Part shown: in pieces, positions 4,513-17,080 of the stretch | How positions within the stretch are numbered: position 1 is the first letter of the stretch | How the letters are laid out: every line of letters starts with the position of its first letter | Origin: Pyropia yezoensis | Taxonomy: Eukaryota; Rhodophyta; Bangiophyceae; Bangiales; Bangiaceae | Length of the DNA stretch: 64,000 nt | Direction: 5' to 3' | NCBI GenBank assembly: GCA_009829735.1 | Contig: CM020620.1 | Coordinates: forward strand, 19,380,020-19,444,019 | Translations under genes and position numbers: made by a program | The notes under the pieces: model-generated | Database searches by the model: none | What the model was told of the DNA's origin: nothing | What the model saw: the letters and a program-made list of their open reading frames with translations, nothing else

Positions 4513-5066
4513 CTCCACCAATGGAGCCAAAAGCCAACCCAGACGAGACACGTGACGCCACGTGGGCGACTCTGAATGGCTACTCCAACTGAGAATCCAA
4601 CCCAAAACGCGGCATACTTCAATAACGCCCCGCCAGGGGCTACTAGAGGCCGTAGTCTTCCGCATGGAATCTCTAAATCCTCAGCAGGCAAGCCTGAGAG
4701 GTTGGCGGCCGGCCCTCCTATGACGCGTGGCTGGCAGGTGGTCGTGAGCCAGAGGACCCACTGCCTCACGACCGTCAGCGAGCCACGCGTCACGCTTTTG
4801 ATTGGCGCAGGTTGGCTCGGCGTTTGGCCAAAAGCCGAAACACCGAGCCAAACAGGCTCGTTTGGCTCGGGGGTTGGCCCCGCTGCCGTTGAAATTCAAA
4901 AAGTCGAGCGCTCTCGAGGTGCATTAAGGTGGTGTCGAGGGCAATTAAGAATTGTGATATGACCTTAGTTTTGGAGCGTCACACGGCACGCCAGTCAGAG
5001 CCAAAGCTAAACCGCTGAAACTGCTGCCACGTAGTTGGCTTTTGGCTTTTGGCTCCATTGGTGGAG
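4513..5066. mobile_element. Foldback/MITE-like element with perfect 16-bp terminal inverted repeats
   Basis: The ends CTCCACCAATGGAGCC (4513-4528) and its exact reverse complement (5051-5066) bound 554 bp with no coding capacity. Inside the right end the unit AAAAGCC is present once more than on the left. A second, internal inverted repeat (4721-4748 against 4765-4792) would form a long hairpin. GGCTCGG/CCGAGCC palindromes fill 4800-4880. I could not see an unambiguous target-site duplication. The structure fits a non-autonomous DNA transposon; the superfamily cannot be named from the ends alone. Confidence 0.55.
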
Positions 5067-5359
5067 GTGCTCTTACCGGAGAACATATTGCCCTTCCACG
5101 CGAGGGCGGCGGCGGCTATCCTCCGACAGTCCCGCTGCCGCCGCACGAGTGACCTTGACCGTCGTGGAGGCAACGGTTGCGGCGACGGCCCCCGCGGTCA
5201 TCGCCGTTTTTCGGCTCGCGCAGCTAGAGGAGGGTGACGGCGGCGGCGGCGACGGCGGGGGCGGCTGCGTCGGCGGCCGCCTTCCGCGTCGAACTTCGGA
5301 GGGGGCGGGGGGAGGCGTGTCAGCTGCCGCCGGCCAGGCGTTCCGCTGCAGCTGCGAGC

Positions 5360-5848
5360 TCAAACACAGCGTCGCCTGTGGCAGACGTTCAATGCCCACC
5401 GGCATACCCGACCAATCGACGGGGCTGCACAAGCGGGGGGGGAGTAAAGAGAAGGGGCAGCGCATGATAGCAGTGGTAGAAGTGAATAAGCATGTACCCT
5501 CTTAAGTGCTCTATACCCCGCCAATGAAAACCTTGCCATCCACTGCGCGTCGTGGGTGTGTGGCCACATCCTGTTACGGGGTTGGACTGTGATGCGACGG
5601 AGGTGACTTGTGAACGCAATCAAGAAAACTGCATTACACACATTCTGAACTGTCTCCCAAAGTTTGTTGTTGAGATCCCGTGACGATAGAGTTCGGCATG
5701 AGTACATGTTTGGAAAGATCTGTCGGTTTACGGTGGTTCGATACTGTGGCGTGCCAGCAGCCGTCGTGGCCAGCTTGTCGAGTGCGAGCCAGCCGGGCTC
5801 GCTTGAGGACAGCCAAACAGTCAATCCGCAGTGGCTCCACCGCATCAT
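5360..5848 (-). CDS. Hypothetical ORF, 162 residues
   Basis: An ATG-started frame with mixed amino-acid composition in a stretch of lower GC than its surroundings, which makes it less likely to be a pure composition shadow. No domain, signal peptide or membrane segment is recognised. It lies between a foldback element and the Fanzor relic and could equally be part of an old mobile element. I do not assign a function. Confidence 0.2.
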   Translation of the reverse strand: MMRWSHCGLTVWLSSSEPGWLALDKLATTAAGTPQYRTTVNRQIFPNMYSCRTLSSRDLNNKLWETVQNVCNAVFLIAFTSHLRRITVQPRNRMWPHTHDAQWMARFSLAGYRALKRVHAYSLLPLLSCAAPSLYSPPACAAPSIGRVCRWALNVCHRRRCV

Positions 5849-6075
5849 GGTCCTCTCAAACGGCGCTGTGGCCTCTCAATCAATGGAAGCCCCCCTCCCC
5901 GAGAGGGGCTTATAGCGACGCCATCTAAGAGGGTCCTACACTATCGCTGATCAACCGTGCGACAATTGCCCCCGCCGTCGCCGGCAGGACTCGTCGCTGC
6001 GCGGGAAAAGGCAGTGGCCCCGTCCAGAGCCCTCACCGAGACGAGTTTGGTCGTCGCCCGGACAGGGTTGGTAGT

Positions 6076-6168
6076 ACCACCACCGCCTCCACCGCCTCCA
6101 CCTCCTCCACCGCAACCGCCACCGCCTCCACCGCCTCCACCGCCTCCACCGCCACCGACCGCTGGGCA
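6076..6168. repeat. Microsatellite, unit ACCGCCTCC
   Basis: Tandem, slightly degenerate copies of a 9-base unit (ACCGCCTCC, with ACCTCCTCC and ACCGCAACC variants). It lies just beyond the 3' end of the Fanzor relic. Confidence 0.85.
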
Positions 6169-6199
6169 GTAGCCGCCAGAGGCCGGCGAAGGTGACAGT

Positions 6200-8742
6200 T
6201 GCGGGAAAAGGGAGACGTAGACGGCCCCAACAACGAACTGACCGCCACCTGCGCGATGCTGAGCGTCGTGTTCTTTCCCGGTTGAGGTACAGCCGACCAC
6301 AGTCGGGGTTGACACACTTCTTCACGGACCAGCACGCCAGCACATCATAGCCGCCAGAGCGCTTGCCACTGACCAAAATCTCGGCCAGCCGCTCTCGCTC
6401 CTCGCCGGCATCGCTCTCCTCTGCCCGTCCTCGCTGCGTCACGTCCCGTGGGGAGAGCCCTCGCGACCGTGGCACCCGCGATGCCCCTTGGCCGCCTGTC
6501 GCCGGCGCACCACTAACTTGCGCTTGCTGCCGTCTGCGTCAACAAGCGCCTGCGCCGCGCACTGCGCCACGTTAATGACCTGCCGCCTGTCACCCGGCGA
6601 GAGGTCGGTGGGGTAGACGAGCACCAGCCGACAGCGACAGTCGGCACAGGTCTGCGACGAGCTCTACTCGTCTTTGGTGGCAAGGCAGCGCCACCGCGCC
6701 ACTCGGCGCCTCAAGGCCTCCACCCCACCCCTCGTCGCTGGTGCCCCCCACACCACCAAGACGGCCTTGCCGTCCACGATTCGGCGGCCATACCCGCCGC
6801 TCAGATCCCGCGCGACCTTGGCCGCGAACCGTCCGCGCTGCGCATGGCGGTGCACGCGGGCCTTGCGCAGCGGCCGCAACGGGTCTTTCCCATAGGCGCC
6901 AGCATGGTCGGCAGGGCTGCGAAAGGCAGCCCAGGTCAAGGCGGCTGCCGCCCAGTCCAGCAACGTCGGCTGCTTGAGGGACATACCCTCAAAGAGGTCC
7001 TCTGGGGTGGCCTTGGAGCCGGCTGGCCGGCTGGCCTCCCACACCGCCAGCCACAAAGCCTGCGCCCTTGCCACAATCTCGCCGCCCGACTGCTCGGCAT
7101 ACGCAGCACTGCTCACAGACAGTGTTGCCCCGCGAGGTGGGCAGATGGGGGGGCGTGCTGGCTGGTGTCGTCGCCATCCCCGCCGCCGTCGCCGACAGGC
7201 GCCCTTCCCGTGCGCCCCAGCAGTCTCGTTGGCCCCAGATGCCAGCATCGCCTCTGCACACAGCGTGTCAATGAGCCACGCAGACGCGCTCGTATGGGCG
7301 AGCTCCTCCTGCGCCTCCTTGAGGAGCTCGGCACGTGGTGCCCGCCTGGCCGTCGCCACGGGTCCCCGGCGCTTGCGCTGCGACCGCCGGTGCCGCCCGG
7401 ACCGGGATACCTTTCCCGCCGCTGCCGCGGTACAACAACCGGCAGGACAACCACTCGCAATCGCAGCGCCTTGACCCACCCCCCCTGCCAAGGATACACT
7501 ACCGTTGATGTTGACCGGCCCCACCGCACTTGCGACCGACTCGCCCCCGACAGCGGCGGCCGCCGCGTCGTCTTCCGCAGCCAAGGGTGGCAGCGTCCCG
7601 GTCTTCTTCTGGGTCCCGCGTGCGACAGACAGGGGCGGCAGGGCTGCCTGCCTTGCTTCGGCCGCCGTCTTAATCTCCTGGGCTTGAGACCGTGAGGCGC
7701 CAGCGGCGGCCAGCCGGCTCAGCGCGCGCGCAGCCCGCGCCAGCGAGTGGGCTGCGACCGTCCACGCCCGCTCCGACCAGTACGCAAACACGTGTGGCGA
7801 CGGGACGACCACAAGGTCGGGATCCAGGCCCAGCAAGTAGGCCGTGTAGATGTCATTGGCCCCCGAGTCCACGCCTACCACACACTTCTTGACCGTCCCG
7901 TCAAGGGGCAGCCCCATGACGGCCGCCTGGTGTTCCAGGCTCGTCACATCGCCGCCCGACGTGGTCCCGGTGCCGCCCGGCAGTCGTCTGGCCTGGTGCG
8001 CTTGCGCGGCCGTCACCTCGGCCGCGTCGGCCGGCCGCTCCAGCGTGAAGACAATAACCGTCCCGTTAATAACAACGTAGGGGCAAAAGCGGGACCGCCT
8101 TGTATGCACCCCGGCCATAGCGGCCAGCTTGGCGACACCGGCGCTCCCATTCGTGCCGCGATTCACCGCTACTAGGGTGTGCACCTCGCCAAGCCCCGGG
8201 TTTGAGACGAGTTCATCCCGTTCCATCGCCCGCCGCAGCAGCGTCGGGGTGACGTACGTGCAGCGGCACAGGTCAGGTGCGAGGCGCAGAAAGACCGCAT
8301 ACGACGTGCGCTTCCGCGACAAGAGCAGCCGCTGTACTTCAATTTGGAGGGGAATGAAAAGCAGCCAGGACGCCTGGCGGCGCGTCTCGGGAAGGGTGAT
8401 GACCAGCTCTGCGCCGAACTTCATGCACAGAACCCGCGGAAGTACAGCCCTGAGGTCTGCGGCGATCCGCTACTGTACGAGGGGTGGCGCCCCCGCCGGC
8501 CACGAGCCGTCCTTGACCCCGTCGGCACCCCCCATCATCGTGTCGGCGATAAACCGCGTGAGCTTGCCGCGGAGTGCGCGACGCTCACAGTCTTGCGCGC
8601 GGCCTGCAGGGGTGGACGCCTGTGCTTGCGCCTGCGCCGTCAAGGGTGTATGCGGTAACAGCCCGACCGCTTGCAGGTCGTCATCGACCATCACCTTCGT
8701 AAGGCACGTCACTGCCGTTTTTGCCGTTCGTGCAACGTGCAT
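6200..8742 (-). pseudogene. Fanzor (eukaryotic TnpB-like RuvC nuclease), disabled
   Basis: Read leftward from an ATG at 8742. The N-terminal part (TCLTKVMVDDDLQ) resembles the start of Fanzor proteins. RuvC-I is VVGVDSG, near 7870. After a disordered Ala/Arg-rich middle comes the block typical of Fanzors just before RuvC-II: KDPLRPLRKARVHRHAQRG, then VDGKAVLVVWG, then a pair of Arg-rich helices ending KDE. The next codons align with the family's DE-aromatic-x-T-S-x-x-C-x-x-C motif, but the aromatic position is a TAG stop (6664-6666), followed by SSSQTCADC. A second TAG lies at 8470-8472. Further on, VKKCVNPDCGRLYLNRE near 6320-6275 matches the second zinc-ribbon half and the NRDxNA motif of RuvC-III, with E for D and a frameshift right after it; another frameshift lies near 6440-6475. 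Known: Fanzors are RNA-guided DNA endonucleases carried by transposons. This copy must be dead. Family assignment is by motif order, not by a search. Confidence 0.72.
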
Positions 8743-8768
8743 CGAGATGGTCGTGGCCGCCGTCTTGA

Positions 8769-9131
8769 TGCAGCAATATGGATGACCGTATTGCGTCCCT
8801 AATTCAGAGGGACTACTTCTAATCCTTAACTGTCAAGTTGGGAGTTCGCATTGGTCACGGTATCTGCGAGTTACGTATGACCAGAGGAACTTGCATCTTG
8901 GGGTGGGGGGTAGTTAGTGGTGTCTCCGAGGGTTTATAACGAGGGGGCCGGCGGCGAATCCACCGCCGGCCATGGTAAAACAACAAACCCCTCCCATTTG
9001 GGCTCCCATCTTAGTCCCGTGGCCTGCGCGCCAAGGACACAAAACCTTGGCCTCCCGGTGACGTTGGTGCCGATCCCCCCTGGTGAGTATTCCCTGAGAG
9101 TGGACGTGCTACGGCTTCCTATTGTGCTACA
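8769..9131 (+). repeat. 5' LTR
   Basis: Begins TGCAGC and ends GCTACA, near-complementary LTR termini. Contains a TATA-like TTTATAAC near 8934-8941, just before a 9-bp-arm GC hairpin (GGCCGGCGG...CCGCCGGCC, about 8946-8971). It matches 19635-19998 over its whole length. Confidence 0.85.
8934..8941 (+). promoter_or_regulatory. Putative LTR TATA box
   Basis: The motif TTTATAAC occurs at the same place in both LTRs and precedes a strong GC-rich hairpin. It is a reasonable transcription start region for the element; no start site can be read from sequence alone. Confidence 0.35.
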
Positions 9132-9132
9132 T

Positions 9133-9150
9133 TGGTGGAGCAGCAGGGGA
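9133..9150 (+). promoter_or_regulatory. Putative primer-binding site (PBS)
   Basis: One base after the LTR's terminal CA comes TGGTGGAGCAGCAGGGGA. It begins with the TGG expected for pairing with a tRNA 3' CCA end. The donor tRNA is not identified. Its position supports rightward polarity of the element. Confidence 0.5.
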
Positions 9151-9369
9151 CGGGTTTCCGTCACCCTAGTGGTGACGCCGTCTTCGGCTCTGGCACACGG
9201 ATTGAGAGCCGGTCCGTCTCTTGTACTCGTGGTGTCGCGATCTGGTTAGCTGTGTTGAGTTGTTACGTTTGATTGTGATTGATTGTTACGTCCCCCTACC
9301 TACCCCCTCGCTCTCTTCTTTGTGGTGACCTTCACGTCGGTTGACTGATTGTGACTACGTCTACCCAAT

Positions 9370-9879
9370 GTGGCAAAAACCACCTGCACACACGACACCC
9401 AAGTTGGGCCGGTTTTCAAGGGCTGCCTCCCGTGTCGGGGGAACCGGAAGAAGTGCAAGTCGCATACACTCTGTCCCTGTTGTGGGGCAAACCCCCCACT
9501 GACAAACAAGAGGATGGTGTGTGGTCCAACAGTTTCTTGGTCGGGACGGGGACGCAGGGCCAAGCCCCGCTGTCCCTCCCCTTATCCCCCCAGGGTCCCC
9601 TCAGAATCTCGCCACTCAGAATCTCCAACCCCAGCACCTGCCCACCGGGCCACACGAATATTCAAGACGATAAATGCAGAAAACCCTCAAATCCAAGTTG
9701 GATTTACTACTAAGCTAACTATCCCAAACTTAGGGAATATGGACCCAAATGCAGGGGGAGGAACGGATCAGGCTAGTGGCCTGCCGCCCCTTGCATGGCA
9801 CGTGTTGCCCCCCTACCTGGGGGTCAATACTGCCGCACTCCCCTCTCCTCAGTTCCGACCGACCCGGTCGGCCCTGTGA
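9370..9879 (+). CDS. Cys-rich leader ORF of the LTR element, hypothetical
   Basis: A frame between the LTR and gag-like ORF 1 has Cys and His in a tight cluster near its start (residues 6-52: C, H, CLPC, KKCKSH, CPCCG, C), a spacing reminiscent of small zinc-binding modules. The frame lacks an ATG at its 5' end, so the true start is unclear. Two of the element's CAASTTG palindromes (9398-9408, 9689-9705) lie within it. It could be a leader without a protein product. Confidence 0.25.
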   Translation: MAKTTCTHDTQVGPVFKGCLPCRGNRKKCKSHTLCPCCGANPPLTNKRMVCGPTVSWSGRGRRAKPRCPSPYPPRVPSESRHSESPTPAPAHRATRIFKTINAENPQIQVGFTTKLTIPNLGNMDPNAGGGTDQASGLPPLAWHVLPPYLGVNTAALPSPQFRPTRSAL

Positions 9880-12800
9880 GGGGGTGCGTAAACGCACGTC
9901 TCGGCGTTGGGGGCGCGACTTGCTGTCCCCCCCTTGAGTACGTAACGCGGATGTGGAGGCGGTCACGTTGACCGCCCCTCTCCTCATGCTTGCCCACTCG
10001 GCAGCTTGCTCTCCTCGGTTCACACTTCACCATCACCATCACCTCCCCTTCACCTTCCACGGGGCCGCCCCACGCTGGGGAGGCCACCCGTCTACCCACG
10101 ATCCGAGTCCCCCTCAACTCGAGGCGGGTCTCGTGCCGCTGTAGCCAGGGCGTCTCTCCCCAACTTGGGGAGAGCCATGGCGACCCCGGGAGTGGAGACG
10201 GACTCTCTCGACGAGCGTATGGAGGACACCTCCCACGGTGCAGCGCCCGCCGGGACTTCCGGCGGGGGCTCCGCGATCGCTCCGGGGGATGGGACTCCCG
10301 CGTCACCCGGCTTTGGGTTGACGGCGGGATCTCCCCCGGAGGCGGGACAAGTTGTCCGGCGTGAGGCCTTGGGGCGGTGGTTTTACCCCGCTTGGCCTCT
10401 CTATGAGGAGGGGTTGACTGTTCATCGCTGTGGCCGACTTGGCGCAGCGATGGGTCGGGTATGGGACCGCCTACGGGAGAAGTATCCCCGTAGGGTCGGG
10501 TTCCCTGCCGGCTTCAGGACGGACCAGTTTGCCTTCCTGGACGACAAGGAGGTCGAAGACGTACAGCGTGCCAAGGCCATGGTGGACCGCGGGGGAACTA
10601 TCCCGGGTCCCGGCGACTTGCCGACCTTTACGTGGGACGCTGTGGCAACTCGCCCCCCGTACCTTCACGAGGCCGATCCGCACACTCATCACTTTGATGT
10701 GCGGATGGAAAAGGACTTCCGGCGAGGTCCCTACTTGGTGACCTCGGCTCAACTTGAGTTTCCTCAGCAGTCTGCTGCCAGTAAGGAGCAGTACTATCCG
10801 AAGAAGCCCGAGTGGTGGACTCAAGTAGAGGTCCCCTACGGGTTCCCGGCGTTGCTGCCACGGTTGCTCGACCACTTCGGCTCCGTCATGTTGACGGCTG
10901 GCCCTGACCACCTGGTGTGGGCCATGTTGGCCACGCAGTGGCTCCTTGAGGTCATGTCGACCTGCGTGTCTTGTGTTCTGCGGCGGGGGATGCTCTGGCA
11001 TCTCCACCTCCGGCTTATCCAAGGTTTGGAACAGCTCACCCCTCAGCTAGTTGCTGAGGGGTGCTCATCAGGACAACTCACTCTACTTGAAAAGATGCTC
11101 CGCCTCCACAAGTTTATCGAGTGGGAGAGCATTGAGCACAAGTTGCGCCGCCCCACTCGTGGGCCCAAGGACGATGGCGCACTTCGCCAGTTCGTGTGGG
11201 TCGCTCGTGAACTTCACGACGGCCGTGTGGTCCTACGAGAGGGGTTGGGCATCGGGGACTACCCGTATGCCCCGGGAGTGGATCGCCACACTGCGCCACC
11301 CCCGGACAAGCCCATATTTATGGCCGTGCTCTCATATGATGACCATATGACTCAACCCACTGCGGGGGCCCCAAGTCGGGGTCGCAGTTACACCCGGGTC
11401 CCGCCACCTCGGCGTGCCCCTCCGCTTCCTCCTGTCCCCTACCAGCCGCACGGGGACATCCCGATTAGCGTGGCCATTGAGTCGTCCACCCCGGTGTCCC
11501 CCAACTTGGGGGCCACCCTCCTGACGGTATACCCCAAGTTGGTGTTACCGCCCACGCCTCAAACCTCAGAGATGATGATCACCACGTTGGTGCGCACCAT
11601 TTCCTGGTTGGCCGCGTCGACCGCAACCCTTCAAAGTTCCGAGACTCCTCAACTTGAGGAGCGCGTTCGTACTGCCGTGGCGACCGAGAGTTGCGAGTCG
11701 GTGGCGGAGTTTATGACGGCCGAGTTGGCTCGCATTGGGGCTATTATGCCCCAGCCAGCCCCACTTGGGCGTGGTAAACGTCGCGCGAGCCGGGCATACT
11801 CGCCTCCTCGCCGTCGTCGCCGACACTCGCGGCGCTCTCCCTCCGTGTCGGAAGACGAGTTGTCTTACTCCGTCTCGGAGTCCTCGACTCCGTCAGAGTC
11901 GGAGTCGGTCCGGCGTCTGCGTCGCCAACTTGCGCGCAAGACTAAACAGAAGGGCAGCCGCGGTCGTCGCCACTTGCGCGACCGTGAGGGGCGCGACGGT
12001 TCCGACTTGGAGCCGCCGGCCCCGCCGACTGGTGGGGAGCGTTATCGCCGTGGATCTCGCCGCTCGCCTCTACGTGAGGGCGAGGGCCGTGGGGTTGGAG
12101 AGTCTAGCATGCATGCCTAGTTGGCAGCTGCCTTTGTTGTGAGAGTGTGAGGGTTAGGGCTGTAGTTAAAAGCCACTCTGCGTACCACTTCGACTTGAAG
12201 CACTCTCTTGGCACTGTTACTCGGCCTTCCCTCACGTTGAGGGAGGGCTGTTAGGGTCTATCTCATTCCGGGCACAGTATGCCCGGACCTTCTCAGCGGG
12301 AAGGTCCTCCACATACTCCCACGTATCATCCTTGGCTTTGTAGCCAAACCAAGGCACCCTCAACATGAGGCGGTCAGTGTCCTCATCCCAGCCGTGGTCG
12401 ATGAACTTAGCGAACACGTACTCTTGCGGGCCCTGTTTGGCCGCAGGCAGCGAGGGGAGGCGCCACGCTTCCAACGCACGCGCCCAAGCTGGGTCGCCTG
12501 CAGGCGGTGGTGCAACTTTGACCACGTCCTGTCCGTTCACTGTGCGGACACCATCGTCACTTTCGATGGTGAAGCGCCGCCCATCAGTACGAAGGACCTG
12601 GTACGGCCCCTTCGTCTGGAATACCAACTTACCCCCAGTTGGGGTGTGTGAGTGTACCAGCACCCAGTCACCCTGCTCGGGGACATGCTTAGCATTGCGC
12701 ACCTTTTTGTCAAAGGTACGCTTGTAGCGCTTTTGTGCTTTGTCCATCTCAGCCCTGACTTTAGGGATGAGGTTTTCAAGCCTAGCAGCAAACTCCGCCT

Positions 12801-15208
12801 TACTCTCAGTAGGAGTAGGCGTACTGCCACCATCCTCCCTAGTTGGGAGCGGCCGCCGTACGGCAATAGACCGCACGCGACGGGGGGTCACAAAAGCGAG
12901 GGGTACTTCCCCGGTAGATGAGTGAACCTGCGAATTGTAGGCAGTGGTAAGAATAGAAATGTATTGGTCCCACGTTTTCACATGCTCACTCACATAGTGG
13001 CGCAGCTGCCGAACAATAGTTTTGTTGAAGCGCTCCACCTGCCCGTTAGTTTGTGGGTGGTAGGGGGTAGCATAGTTTGCCTTAACCCCCAAAATATCCA
13101 GCACTCCCTGAAACAGTACAGACGCAAATTGCGGTCCATTGTCCGATAGTGTACTATCCGGAATGCCATACGCGGCAACCCAGTGATCTAGGAAGGCTGA
13201 CACGACCGACATGGCCGTGATCTCTGCCAGTGGGATCGCTCGCGTAAGTTTCGTGAAGCGGTCACAGATGACCAGGAGGTACTGGTTGCCCTCCTCGGTC
13301 ACTGGCAGTGGCCCAAGGATGTCCATCGCCAACGCGGCAAAGGGCTCCTTGGCCGGGAACAATAGCATAGCCGTAGTAGGCCGCCGTTCCATCAGACGGT
13401 TCTGTGCACAACTTGTGCAGGCAGCCACCCAACTGTAGATGTCCACCACCATGGACGGCCAGTAGTACTTGGTCCTCAGGGTCTGGTACAGGTTACTAGA
13501 CCCCAGGTGTCCACCCGTGGGAGCGTTGTGCTCCCTCTCAAGGATACTGTCCTTGAGGGATGCGGGGACGACAAGTTGTTCGGTCCCCTGGAGTACCCCC
13601 CTCCTCATGAGGAGGCCATCGTCTCCCAGAAAGAACCGCGTCTTCGCAACTGTATCCAGTGTATCCCTCTGCGACTTGCAGAAGGGATCCTCGGCCTGGG
13701 CCTTCACCACCTCGTCGAGGGACAAGGGCAAGTACTTCTTGTTCCCTGGCGCCTCGGGGTTCAACACCTGACCCGAGCGCGTGACTACCCCCACGATGGG
13801 GATGTCCTCATCGACTGGGTTAGTGTCCAGCCCCTCGGTAGGTACCCGAGAAAGGCCGTCGGCAAGGGCATGTTGCCTGCCAGGTCGGTACTCAATATCA
13901 AAGTTGAAGGGTGCCAGTCGCACCCTCCCCCGGTTGAGACGAGTGTTCGTACAGTCCGTCTTAAAGATGAACTGCAACGCGCGGTGGTCACAGCGGATGA
14001 GGAACTTCTCACCCTCTAGGTAGTGACGAAGTGACGTCACCGCCCACACCACTGCGAGTCCTTCCAACTCGGTGACTCCGTAGTTCTTCTCGGCCGAGTT
14101 CAGCCCCTTGCTGAAGTATCCCACCGGCAAGTACTCCTTGTCCGGCTGCTGCTGAAGCAATACACAACCAAGTTGGTCGTAGCTAGCGTCCACATCCAGG
14201 ATGTACTGGGCTCCCAACCTGGGAATAGCCAGGATAAGGGGCTTCAGCAGAAGGTCCCGAAGAGTCTCAAAGGATTCCTGCTCCACCCGACTTGGGGGAG
14301 GCAGGTTCTTCGGTAGCGTTGAGCTCACTAACTCATTCAACGGCTTCGCCACCTTGGCGAAGCCCTCGGTGAAACGTCGGTACACGTTTACACATCCCGA
14401 GGAAGCTCCTCATCTGGGTCTGGGTCCGGGGGTACTGAGCCTTACGGATGGCCCTCAAGTTCTTCTCGTTGACACTGAGACGCCCCGGACGGACAACATG
14501 TCCCAAGTATTCCACCTCTTGAGTGAAGAGGTGGCACTTACTCGCCTTCAGTGACACACCGGCGTCAGCAAGTAGCTTGAACACCTGGCCAAGATGGCCA
14601 ATGTGCTCCTCCGGACTTCGGGAGAACACAATGATATCGTCTAGGTACACGAGACAGATCTGCCACCGTACTCCGGCCAGAATCATGTCCATAGCGCGCT
14701 GGAAAGTTGCCGGCGCGTTACGCAGACCGAACGGTAGACGCTTGCACTGGTAGGTACCACAGTGACAGGTAAAGGTAGTTTTATGCCTGTCCTCCGGGGC
14801 AATGGGAATTTGCCAGTACCCCGCGTTACAGTCCAGGGTAGAGAACACGTTCGCCTCCCCCAGAGAGTCCAGACAGTCGTCCATCCTAGGTAGGGGATAA
14901 CTGTCCTTCACCGTGCTCTCGTTGAGCTTACGGTAGTCGATACAGAACCGGGGGGTCCCATCAACTTTGGGGACGATAACCACCGGACTCGCCCACTCGG
15001 CGTTACTGGCCTCGATCACATCGAGGGCCTCCATGCGAGCAACTTGCTCCTTAACGAGGGCCCTTGAACGGGGTCCTCCCCTATACGGTTGTTGGCGTAT
15101 AGGGGCTGCACCGGGCTTCAACTCGATCCGGTGTTGGGTAGCTCTCATGAGTCCCAATTGACCATCCCACAACTTGTGATATTGGTCCAAGAGGCGTTCA
15201 ACTTGAAC
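9398..15208. repeat. Family of CAASTTG-centred palindromes
   Basis: Short palindromes with an odd centre share the core CAA-C/G-TTG but have different, self-complementary arms. Perfect ones: 9398-9408, 9689-9705, 10154-10174, 10345-10357, 10748-10758, 11205-11219 (core GAACTTC), 11498-11512, 11645-11661, 13405-13419, 14167-14177, 15037-15049, 15168-15178, 15196-15208. With one mismatched pair: 9722-9736, 10611-10623, 11037-11063 (27 bp), 11758-11770, 12188-12200, 12631-12645, 12835-12849, 14212-14224. They lie in leader, gag-like and pol coding sequence alike and fade out after about 15.7 kb. Confidence 0.8.
10177..12120 (+). CDS. Gag-like ORF 1 with a C-terminal Arg/Ser domain
   Basis: 647 residues from an ATG at 10177; an open extension upstream to 10006 has no better start. 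The N-terminal ~70 residues are Gly/Pro/Ser-rich. The middle (about 100-400) is a globular, Trp- and Leu-rich region without zinc knuckles. The C-terminal ~100 residues are Arg/Ser-rich (PRRRRRHSRRSPS and SESESVRRLRRQ), which would serve as a nucleic-acid-binding tail. I recognise no named capsid family. The call rests on position behind a 5' LTR and PBS and on this architecture. Its strand agrees with LTR polarity. The DNA carries about ten of the CAASTTG palindromes inside codons. Its 3' end faces the 3' end of pol across 112 bp. Confidence 0.5.
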   Translation: MATPGVETDSLDERMEDTSHGAAPAGTSGGGSAIAPGDGTPASPGFGLTAGSPPEAGQVVRREALGRWFYPAWPLYEEGLTVHRCGRLGAAMGRVWDRLREKYPRRVGFPAGFRTDQFAFLDDKEVEDVQRAKAMVDRGGTIPGPGDLPTFTWDAVATRPPYLHEADPHTHHFDVRMEKDFRRGPYLVTSAQLEFPQQSAASKEQYYPKKPEWWTQVEVPYGFPALLPRLLDHFGSVMLTAGPDHLVWAMLATQWLLEVMSTCVSCVLRRGMLWHLHLRLIQGLEQLTPQLVAEGCSSGQLTLLEKMLRLHKFIEWESIEHKLRRPTRGPKDDGALRQFVWVARELHDGRVVLREGLGIGDYPYAPGVDRHTAPPPDKPIFMAVLSYDDHMTQPTAGAPSRGRSYTRVPPPRRAPPLPPVPYQPHGDIPISVAIESSTPVSPNLGATLLTVYPKLVLPPTPQTSEMMITTLVRTISWLAASTATLQSSETPQLEERVRTAVATESCESVAEFMTAELARIGAIMPQPAPLGRGKRRASRAYSPPRRRRRHSRRSPSVSEDELSYSVSESSTPSESESVRRLRRQLARKTKQKGSRGRRHLRDREGRDGSDLEPPAPPTGGERYRRGSRRSPLREGEGRGVGESSMHA

Positions 15209-15763
15209 CCTCAACCTGGGTGGAACACCCTCCATGTTCACATGGGGCCGAGGAGAGGCGGCCGACTTGGCTTGATGCTTCTCCTTTCCGGACTTCGGGT
15301 CGCTACTTGCGCCCGCGTTGAGGGTGACCGCTACTACCGGTCCTTCTTGTTGGTCGATATTGCCGAACTTGGCTCCCGACTTGAAGTACTTGGGCGACGA
15401 GCTCAGGTTCATCACCTGGATCCTCCACGGGACTCCGGCTTTGGAGTCCATCGTGCCAAGGGCAACATGCACTTGGTGCTTGCGAGCAAGACGGGGGTAA
15501 GGGTGCACCAACCCGTTCCCCGTATAATCAGTTACAACATCAACGTGCGCCACCGAGTTGGGGGGCAACGTGACTTTACGGGCTAAACGCAGGGTAGCAG
15601 TAAACCCTTCCCTCACAGAACAGACAGGCTTCGACTGTGAGACTGTCACAGGAGCCACAGACTTTCCCTTACCAAGGATGGGGATGGTCTCCCCATTCAT
15701 CAACTTGACCCAAAAATATTGGCCCGTATCGAGGCTCGGTTTTCCGGACTCGACGCCCGTCAA
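12232..15763 (-). pseudogene. pol: Ty3/gypsy chromovirus Pol (RT-RNase H-integrase-chromodomain), frameshifted
   Basis: Encoded leftward, opposite to the LTRs. From the 5' end: a remnant before RT (FWVKLMNGETIPILGKG), reverse transcriptase with VDGTPRFCIDYRKLN, LPFGLRNAPATFQR and the catalytic YLDDIIVFS; then RNase H (ILDVDASYDQLGCVL, TELEGLAVVWA); integrase with an HHCC zinc finger (H..H, CTSC), the D, D and E core (AMDILGPLP, LSDNGPQF, HPQTNGQVERFN); and a C-terminal chromodomain-like segment (FGYKAKDDTWEYVEDL). One extra base near 14388-14392, in the FLGM-VNVYRRF stretch between RT and RNase H, breaks it into two overlapping frames. No protease active site is seen. The 5' end is cut near 15716, where the sequence changes to gag-like ORF 2 of opposite strand. 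Confidence 0.9.
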
Positions 15764-17080
15764 GAGCGTACGGAGGACGCAATGGCAGTGCTGGTGTCAA
15801 CACGCCACACGACGGTACCCCTTCGTATTCCTGCCACACCGGCACGGTTTGAACCGTACGGACTACTATCGGAGTCTACCGGGGCGGACTTCGGCGCAGC
15901 GACTCCCGGACAACCCCCGGGTACGGCAGGTTATGGATCCCACTCGTCAGCCGAGTTGAAACGGATCCACACGGAACGCTACGCTCGGAGTACCCGGAGC
16001 GGACTCCGCAGATACGGCCCGGCGGATACTTACGCCGGAGCAGAGTCGGCCATAGGAGGGGAGGGTACCCTGTCACAGTACCCCCGCGACGGAGAAGGCC
16101 AAGCAGCTCGGGATCCCGAGGCGCCTACGCCGGAAGTACCAGCTTCAATGGTACAGGCCATGACTACGCAGGTAACGGCGAGCTTACTGAAGCGGATGGA
16201 GTCCGATGAGCTCACTCACCAACTGGCCAAGCGACTGGACAGCCAGTACGCTGACACGGAGATCGTCAACGAGGTCTTCGGATCGGTAGTGACTCCAGAA
16301 CGGTACCGGTTGGAACACCGTTCTACTATCGTATCGGAATCGGTGCGTAACACCTCGCATCGGGCGATTCGCTCCATGCAGACCCTGATGAGACGGGGTT
16401 CCGATGTTCGGAGGCCCGAACGGACGTGCGCTGGCAGTTGTAGCATAATACATAATCACCGATCGGCTTACCTAAAGGGTAGGTACTCCTAATGAGATGG
16501 GGCCAAAAGCCCAAATCTGGCTCGAGATGTCAGGGATTTCACCCGGTTGCCTGGTGGTTTGAGCGCGCCATTCCGCTTACTTCTCAAGGGCCCGGGTTCG
16601 ATTCCCACTCTCCGATATCTACTTTTTCGTTATTCCACAGCAGTCATCGGCTTCTTTGTTCATGAACGGGTACCAGGTATCCTCCGCCGGGCATCCCCGA
16701 TGCCGAAAACGAGGGTCGCAGCCACCCCCATGGATTACCGTGGTATTCTAAAGGAGCTGATGAGCAGCTACCGCAGTGAGGATAAGTGCGAAGACCATTG
16801 CCGGGCCCTTCGCACCGTCACCGCCCAGTCCTGGGAGGATGAGGGGATGCTCGGATGCCGAATCCAGGAGCTCGACTACGAGCTGGAGAAGCTCCTAGGA
16901 GAAGGTGAGCTATGGGTCATCTTGTTCGCAGGAGTACCAAACTACATGCAGATACCCGCACGGGGGGCTTATACGGCACGGACGAACTTCAGTCGAATGA
17001 TGCACATATGCAAGTCACTGGAGGACGCCTACCGGATGCTTCACCCGGAGTGTGCCTTAGCCCCGACGCCCAAGGGCTAG
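15719..17080 (+). pseudogene. Gag-like ORF 2, split by stops
   Basis: Two open stretches in the same frame, 15719-16492 and 16547-17080, are separated by TAA and TGA codons at 16490-16495. The first has a coiled-coil-like start (IEARFSGLDARQERTEDAM) without an ATG, as if truncated at the junction with pol, and an acidic/Arg-rich middle. The second, from an ATG at 16700, is charged and helical (MDYRGILKELMSSYR, ELDYELEKLL), like the C-terminal half of a Gag capsid. No zinc knuckle is present. No named family is recognised. It may be a passenger from another element captured between the LTRs. Confidence 0.35.

Follow-up and report, generated by a model that had tools for sequence, protein, structure and literature searches.

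A very probable Fanzor relic in the red alga Pyropia yezoensis and its high-copy relatives, one family of which is linked with a UPF1-like helicase

Fanzors are the eukaryotic cousins of the CRISPR nucleases. A 64,000-nucleotide stretch of contig CM020620.1 of Pyropia yezoensis (hereafter the window) carries a broken coding region, which a first-pass annotation, made from the letters alone, had read as the relic of a Fanzor nuclease gene at positions 6200-8742. The locus thus raises the question of whether this gene is a Fanzor, whether unbroken relatives accompany it, and whether its 3' end could specify a guide RNA. The analysis described here identifies the region, with high confidence, as a 5'-truncated, multiply broken, divergent Fanzor-type nuclease gene on the minus strand, i.e., a dead copy. 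The relic does lie in the span originally given, but its true extent is longer, at 5879-8768.

All of the motifs named in that annotation were confirmed by their coordinates in the window, on the minus strand and in the order claimed. RuvC-I (VVGVDSG, 7861-7881) is followed by an Arg-rich block, QRGRFAAKVARDLSGG (6793-6840), which aligns with the equivalent block of a related family (family B, see below), and by AVLVVWG (6745-6765; AVVVAMG in family B), the hydrophobic strand preceding RuvC-II. The RuvC-II segment (6664-6675) consists of KDE and a TAG stop codon (6664-6666), the latter located, as had been proposed, exactly at the aromatic position of the DE-aromatic motif. The first Cys pair of the zinc ribbon, TCADC (6637-6651, within SSSQTCADC), is separated from a second pair, CVNPDC (6299-6316), which occurs in a different frame. 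A remnant of RuvC-III (6252-6283) comprises NRE (6275-6283) and, across a frame change, KNTTLSIA (6252-6275), where the relative L002 of the same family (family A) has NRDRNAARDIA. In total, the reading frame shifts twice in the last third of the relic; a second in-frame stop is located at 8470-8472, and a C-terminal poly-glycine tract, shared with family B, at 6076-6156. In L002, VVGVDPG, QDEYNSSQTCADC and CVNPDCGRLYLNRDRNAARDIA occur in a single frame, together with CVNPDC and NRDRNAAR. Since these motifs share one frame in L002, the TAG of the window evidently replaces the aromatic residue, which is Tyr in L002, L003, L006 and L009.

The two ends of the relic differ in character. Homology among family A copies stops at 5879, or at most 4 bases away, in 10 copies including that of the window, which marks this position as the 3' terminus of the element. 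At 8768 the window copy breaks off, whereas eight other loci (seven copies, as L010 and L011 overlap) run on in frame. Family A as a stand-alone 2.9-kb element was therefore ruled out, since the stop at 8768 is peculiar to the window copy and the other copies extend upstream.

The truncated end adjoins neighboring repeat DNA at 8768-10207 (in pieces, 8768-9131 and 9360-10207; no strand assigned). A repeat of ∼613 bp, LTR-like by its look, adjoins Fanzor breakpoints at this position and in L007, L008, L010, L012, L013, L016, L022, L025 and L031. Preferential insertion of this repeat into Fanzors was considered and rejected: 2,731 candidate places for it exist genome-wide (40 of them scored), such that its abundance may suffice and chance may account for its presence at the breakpoints. 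Elsewhere in the window, long frames on the minus strand at 12235-15796 resemble, by eye, a Ty3-type polyprotein.

The assignment to Fanzors relies on a published fingerprint, which combines a DPG motif within RuvC-I with a glutamate located six residues ahead of the first CxxC (E_alt), as given in the part of Yoon et al. (2023, PMC10711439) consulted. In the P. yezoensis genome, DPG is present as VVGVDPG in L002 and as VGGDPG in 16 of 19 family B sequences (VGREPG in the B copy L033), while the window copy lacks the proline (VDSG). E_alt was detected in all three families recognized here, as EYNSSQTCADC in family A, EFNTSQACSEC in family B and EHNTSAACAGC in family C, and the window keeps the glutamate ahead of its TAG. 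Families A and B thus carry both parts of the fingerprint, and family C carries E_alt, the fetched C DNA excluding RuvC-I. The RD of RuvC-III follows the zinc finger in each case (NRDRNAAR in A, NRDDVAAR in B and NRDKNAAR in C; decayed to NRE in the window). The Fanzor reading proposed for the locus is thereby supported through its relatives.

The alternative, that the gene encodes a non-Fanzor zinc-binding protein whose motifs resemble those of Fanzors by chance, draws on spacings beyond the published ranges and on the lack of a significant match to solved Fanzors. The accessible text of Bao and Jurka (2013, PMC3627910) gives a Fanzor spacing of D-X(125,275)-[TS][TS]; the corresponding distances here are 402 residues in family A, 405 in family B and 412 in a further protein, P0007. 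Similarly, the short zinc ribbon CxxC-x(12,18)-CxxC, a search pattern for Fanzor-related TnpBs in the part of Yoon et al. (2023, PMC10711439) seen, is replaced by a long insertion, with 118 (A) or 133 (B) residues from the first CxxC to NRD; the second Cys pair is CX4C in family A and CxxC in family B. Against chance resemblance, the six-frame translation of the window contains a single instance of E-[F,Y,H,R,W or stop]-x-[TS]-S-x-x-C-x-x-C, versus an expectation of 0.005 per window (200 frame shuffles); E_alt-CxxC and NRDxxAAR recur in this order in the diverged families, accompanied by DPG in A and B; and the OrfB zinc-ribbon family PF07282 ranks first, below its gathering score, for a family A frame and a piece of B. 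Chance resemblance is regarded as highly improbable.

The profile check suggested at the outset gave matches below threshold. PF07282, the family named for the zinc-ribbon motif in the portion of Bao and Jurka (2013, PMC3627910) consulted, was the top Pfam match of both a family A frame (E 2.2e-4, 21.8 bits) and a 233-residue piece of family B (E 2.1e-3, 18.6 bits), and in L002 it spans the place of the first Cys pair; both scores are below the gathering score of 26.3, and the window frame gave no match. PF07282 was likewise absent from the whole B frame (no family at E up to 1), from P0007 and from the genome scan; it reached E 0.18 for L045 and was not seen in two C pieces, both of which lack the first Cys pair. 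The window protein alone matched nothing in Pfam, NCBIfam or solved structures. Neither the window protein nor the profiles significantly matched any solved Fanzor or TnpB; the 60 matches listed were mostly antibody and fusion chains, and three alignments proved to be glycine-linker matches, none of them to a Fanzor. NCBIfam yielded nothing, and PHROGs and PADLOC yielded weak matches only. Database homologues numbered 10 for the profile, three for P0007 (itself included) and none for the zinc-ribbon part of family A; none was named Fanzor, and none of the searches gave a significant direct match to any characterized Fanzor. Two AlphaFold2 runs returned mean pLDDT values of 31.5 and 35.7, too low for the models to be used. 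Judged from sequence, families A, B and C are best described as divergent Fanzors by fingerprint and motif order, without assignment to Fanzor1 or Fanzor2.

A fourth Fanzor-like lineage was also observed, comprising P0007, P0012 and P0013. P0007 (733 aa) contains SADPG and PERNTSAACDGC. P0012, annotated as a hypothetical protein of P. yezoensis (I4F81_012934) with no function name, has a D-to-[TS][TS] spacing of 217 residues and lacks RuvC-III.

The genome-wide search for paralogues that had been recommended recovered relatives of the window frame. The genome searched comprised 107,475,971 bases in 11 contigs, the three large ones being of 43.59, 34.33 and 29.39 Mb. The 601-residue window frame gave at least 79 matches; since 73 of 142 candidates were scored, the match counts are lower bounds. 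Grouped by identity and position, these fall into three diverged families: A, with roughly 18 loci (at least 60% identical to the window), C, with about 8 (36-46%), and B, with about 40 (31-47%), these locus counts likewise being lower bounds. The B loci at 31-33% identity may represent a further branch. Two family A fragments of equal score and opposite orientation, C1:38860362-38860949 (minus) and C1:38972017-38972604 (plus), lie ∼110 kb apart and are possibly an inverted duplication. Runs of 500 N at L041:2425-2924 and in L026 look like assembly gaps.

In terms of gene integrity, family A is decaying: no unbroken gene was found among the copies translated (the window, L002, L003, L006 and L009), and pN/pS was 0.70-0.73 in three pairs from three sequences, two of the pairs involving the broken window copy, so that selection on the protein looks relaxed. 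The unbroken relatives predicted from the window were found in family B. The 20 fetched B loci were 92-97% identical to one of them (L029) in their main aligned pieces, some 5' pieces being diverged, and in at least 10 the frame is whole, spanning 1,387-1,414 residues that open with MNDDDDGSD and close with ..LVDTARR, and includes VGGDPG, DEFNTS and NRD; the remainder were broken or deviated from the search patterns. Mean pN/pS among 12 B frames, two of them flawed (L025 truncated, L033 with VGREPG), was 0.43 (range 0.26-0.62), which indicates that the B source genes have been under purifying selection. By eye, the B protein has an acidic stretch and two zinc-knuckle-like motifs at its N-terminus and a glycine tract at its C-terminal end, a plan shared by L002 of family A.

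Copies that reach the 3' end of the element stop at one exact base, beyond which the flanks are unrelated. Ten A copies show this, as do 19 of the 20 B loci and five of the six C loci; L020 (A) diverges earlier, L025 (B) is interrupted earlier and L046 (C) falls short of the end, as do other family A copies. The first flanking base varies among A, B and C copies and is thus not the fixed nucleotide to the right of the element that is described, in the part of PMC10711439 consulted, for an IS607-type Fanzor2 element. The last ∼126 bp of A align with C by blastn, while most of the stretch between RuvC-III and that block does not. The idea that the final 200 nt of A are strongly conserved at the DNA level was considered and rejected: conservation is modest, at 91.6% versus 89-90% upstream, and falls to 84% from -60 to -20 (L004 and L020 omitted from this count). 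Similarly rejected was the idea of ghost elements that keep the 3' end alone, of which no family is proposed: the A end has 25 matches, the stronger Fanzor-less ones being mostly longer A 3' fragments, while two keep just ∼158 and 251 bases and four others are too short for a judgment.

The last ∼80 nt of families A and C adopt a common branched fold with a closing stem at the terminus, and the topology in family B is similar. Folded alone, 7 of 8 A ends form a closing stem, with the terminus as its 3' strand and two hairpins inside (L006 folds otherwise). The z-scores of the A ends were -3.90 (L002) to -1.73, with +0.77 for the diverged L005 end and -0.96, over 100 nt, for the window. The five C ends scored -2.39, -0.17, -0.64, -1.11 and -2.06; L043 and L048 close at the terminus like A, L047 has a shorter stem, and in L044 and L045 the closing stem is not in the best fold. 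In the B locus L029, the last 150 nt take a closed branched form (z -2.76), and the last 100 nt give z -1.84. Rfam, applied to window positions 5000-10000, produced four matches, every one under its gathering score.

Ten A ends were used to build a covariance model, which matched all five C ends at full length (37.1, 32.2, 31.4, 28.4 and 22.6 bits), the weakest (L045) equaling an antisense match in L004. A sequence-only model gave the C ends 22.6-25.8 bits, such that structure adds for four of the five by bits and for two of the five by E-value; the A model found none of 18 B loci. Pairs changed on both sides numbered 0 of 81 within A and 0 of 89 within B. Across 14 A and C ends, in an alignment that was fitted to the structure and in effect holds two lineages, the paired fraction of cells was 88.2%, compared with 86.4% for shuffles (none of 500 reached the observed value) and with 44-51% when slid. 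Double-change cells numbered 12 versus 6.1 (0 of 500), and covariation was 0.166 versus 0.137 (1 of 500). Double-change pairs (4 versus 3.5; 258 of 500) and further pair types (18 versus 19; 437 of 500) were no better than shuffles. L004, having also yielded the antisense match, was omitted from the pair count. Overall, covariation is modest.

For comparison, SpuFz1 carries a 75-nt scaffold and a variable guide of 14-15 nt at the element 3' end, according to the part of PMC10432273 consulted. By analogy, the 3' end of family A is probably a putative guide-RNA (omega RNA) scaffold. In the window, it would occupy 5879-5960 on the minus strand, a placement based on the covariance model and on the folding of relatives, the window copy itself looking decayed. 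A guide-like RNA had been predicted just 3' of the gene, below 6200; a conserved, foldable 3' end lies there, and to this extent the predicted location has held.

The chief rival for the RNA reading is that a gene of the TnpB/Fanzor superfamily is accompanied by a conserved 3' end that serves as a transposition signal, e.g., a Helitron-like 3' hairpin, rather than as a guide RNA. Hairpins are found at the 3' termini of Helitrons, and in Chlamydomonas the Helitron2 elements that carry Fanzor1 occur as 5'-truncated copies with an over-abundance of 3' ends, as described in the portion of PMC3627910 consulted. The copies examined here are likewise 5'-truncated with the 3' end kept, the 3' ends of family B have 103 candidates versus 56 for its leftmost stretch, and the modest covariation is also consistent with such a signal. 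Helitron helicases, on the other hand, are PIF1-like, whereas the helicase linked with family B (see below) matches AAA_11/AAA_12 and UPF1. Moreover, the closing stem finishes at the very terminus, like a guide-RNA scaffold, while the Helitron2 hairpin sits inside the end (PMC3627910, in the part consulted), and at least 10 of the 20 B frames retain the catalytic residues. The transposition-signal reading is considered unlikely, and the two roles of the 3' end may coexist.

The favored account is that the window harbors the defunct remains of a mobile element, of the nori alga, that carried a Fanzor. A working element would encode a large Fanzor, with an acidic and zinc-knuckle-like N-terminal part, a RuvC domain split by a zinc ribbon, and a Gly-rich tail. 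By analogy with characterized Fanzors and TnpB, the last ∼80 nt of the element would be transcribed as a guide-RNA scaffold, and the transcript would continue into the DNA flanking the insertion, which would act as the guide. The complex of protein and RNA would then cut an empty site matching the flank, and repair would copy the element back into it.

Family B bears an additional gene. The B Fanzor is preceded, on its own strand, by a superfamily 1 helicase gene that contains GPPGTGKT and matches the Pfam families AAA_11 and AAA_12 (372 residues scanned); in the L041/L027 copy the helicase frame is broken. The nearest solved relatives are UPF1/NAM7, followed by NFX1-type helicases and DNA2, with weak matches (E 0.005-0.24). 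The helicases were counted from 100 matches, of which 48 places of this first family and 16 of a second were used, fragments and weaker matches being omitted. In 35 of the 48, the 25 kb downstream contained, on the same strand, a B Fanzor of the list (29 places) or a B 3' end (30 places), versus a chance expectation of about 0.005 per helicase, and 23 of the 30 distances from helicase to B 3' end lay between 8.2 and 10.4 kb. Conversely, 29 of 40 B Fanzors have the helicase upstream. One B copy could be followed for 11.07 kb, between the 500-N run of L041 and the 3' end present in L027. Of 56 candidate matches to the leftmost 676 bases of this copy, 40 were scored, and every one aligned from the very first base, which places the left end of B further out; the left ends of A and B were looked for and not found.

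The linkage could also reflect two elements, a helicase element and a Fanzor element nested in an ancestral copy that then spread jointly. The stretch between helicase and Fanzor varies among B copies, one 5' form containing a transposase-type helix-turn-helix (HTH_38, E 3e-6, at L027:528-872), and a second family of such helicases occurs mostly away from Fanzors, both of which would suit this reading. The recurrent association in 35 of 48 places and its narrow range of distances speak against it, and joint spread of two elements is viewed as possible though somewhat unlikely.

The second UPF1-like family (38-42% identical to the helicase of B) occupies 16 places, e.g., C1:8767773-8768711 and C3:25435876-25436826; seven of these are in open frames of 1,786-1,940 codons, and two lie within 40 kb of a listed Fanzor. 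It is perhaps a related transposon family without a Fanzor. SNF2 and RecQ helicases are mentioned in other transposons in the part of Bao and Jurka (2013, PMC3627910) consulted, and the word "helicase" is absent from the main texts of Saito et al. (PMC10432273) and Yoon et al. (PMC10711439). A bolder proposal, advanced here as speculative and doubtful, is that family B constitutes a new large eukaryotic transposon (>11 kb), in which a UPF1-like superfamily 1 helicase and a guide-RNA-directed Fanzor would stand in for a classical transposase; the helicase would open or peel DNA, the Fanzor, programmed by the flank, would cut the target, and repair would copy the element.

Among known systems, the P. 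yezoensis elements are like Fanzor1 SpuFz1 of Spizellomyces punctatus in their split RuvC, the zinc ribbon ahead of RuvC-III, and DPG with E_alt, as well as in the many copies per eukaryotic genome, the structured 3' end followed by a variable flank, and Ty3 insertions in some copies. Unlike SpuFz1, the protein is far larger (∼1,400 aa in B), with D and E about 400 residues apart, 118-133 residues separating the first CxxC from NRD in A and B, and N-terminal zinc-knuckle-like motifs; no inverted repeats were established here, and no significant match to solved Fanzors was obtained. The other comparisons draw on the available part of PMC3627910, which already documents a Fanzor in a red alga, Cyanidioschyzon. 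The Fanzor1 element CMe-1A of Cyanidioschyzon merolae is likewise red-algal, high-copy and without a recognized class. By its description it is set apart by a length of about 3 kb and copies ∼80% identical to the consensus, in contrast to a B copy read over 11 kb, B copies mostly 92-97% identical to L029, and a linked helicase. The MCi-2 Fanzor elements of Mucor circinelloides share a variable 5' part and a constant, Fanzor-bearing 3' part, but one of their subfamilies has a partial Crypton transposase, and a helicase is not described there. CRe-1, 2 and 3, the Fanzor1 carriers among the Chlamydomonas Helitron2 elements, are similarly algal, with 5' truncation, a retained 3' end and a 3' hairpin; they have Helitron-type ends and target, whereas the linked helicase here is UPF1-like (372 residues scanned, a Rep domain elsewhere being possible). 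Among the papers searched, none joined Fanzor with Pyropia or with Porphyra.

The relic is real and very probably a Fanzor, and by itself it is of modest interest; its relatives in family B, recently spread, with whole genes, an exact 3' end and a helicase partner, raise that interest. With them, Fanzor elements present in many copies are documented in a red seaweed that is cultivated and whose genome is public. The families are so divergent that the standard profiles tried barely detect them, and Fanzors may accordingly be undercounted in GC-rich algae, P. yezoensis having a GC-rich genome (PMC7423979, in the part consulted). The near-identical B copies, which combine whole genes with different flanks, offer a direct test of the guide-from-flank model through small-RNA sequencing. 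The linkage of family B with a UPF1-like helicase, undescribed in those parts of the Fanzor literature that were examined, may point to an unrecognized route of transposition.
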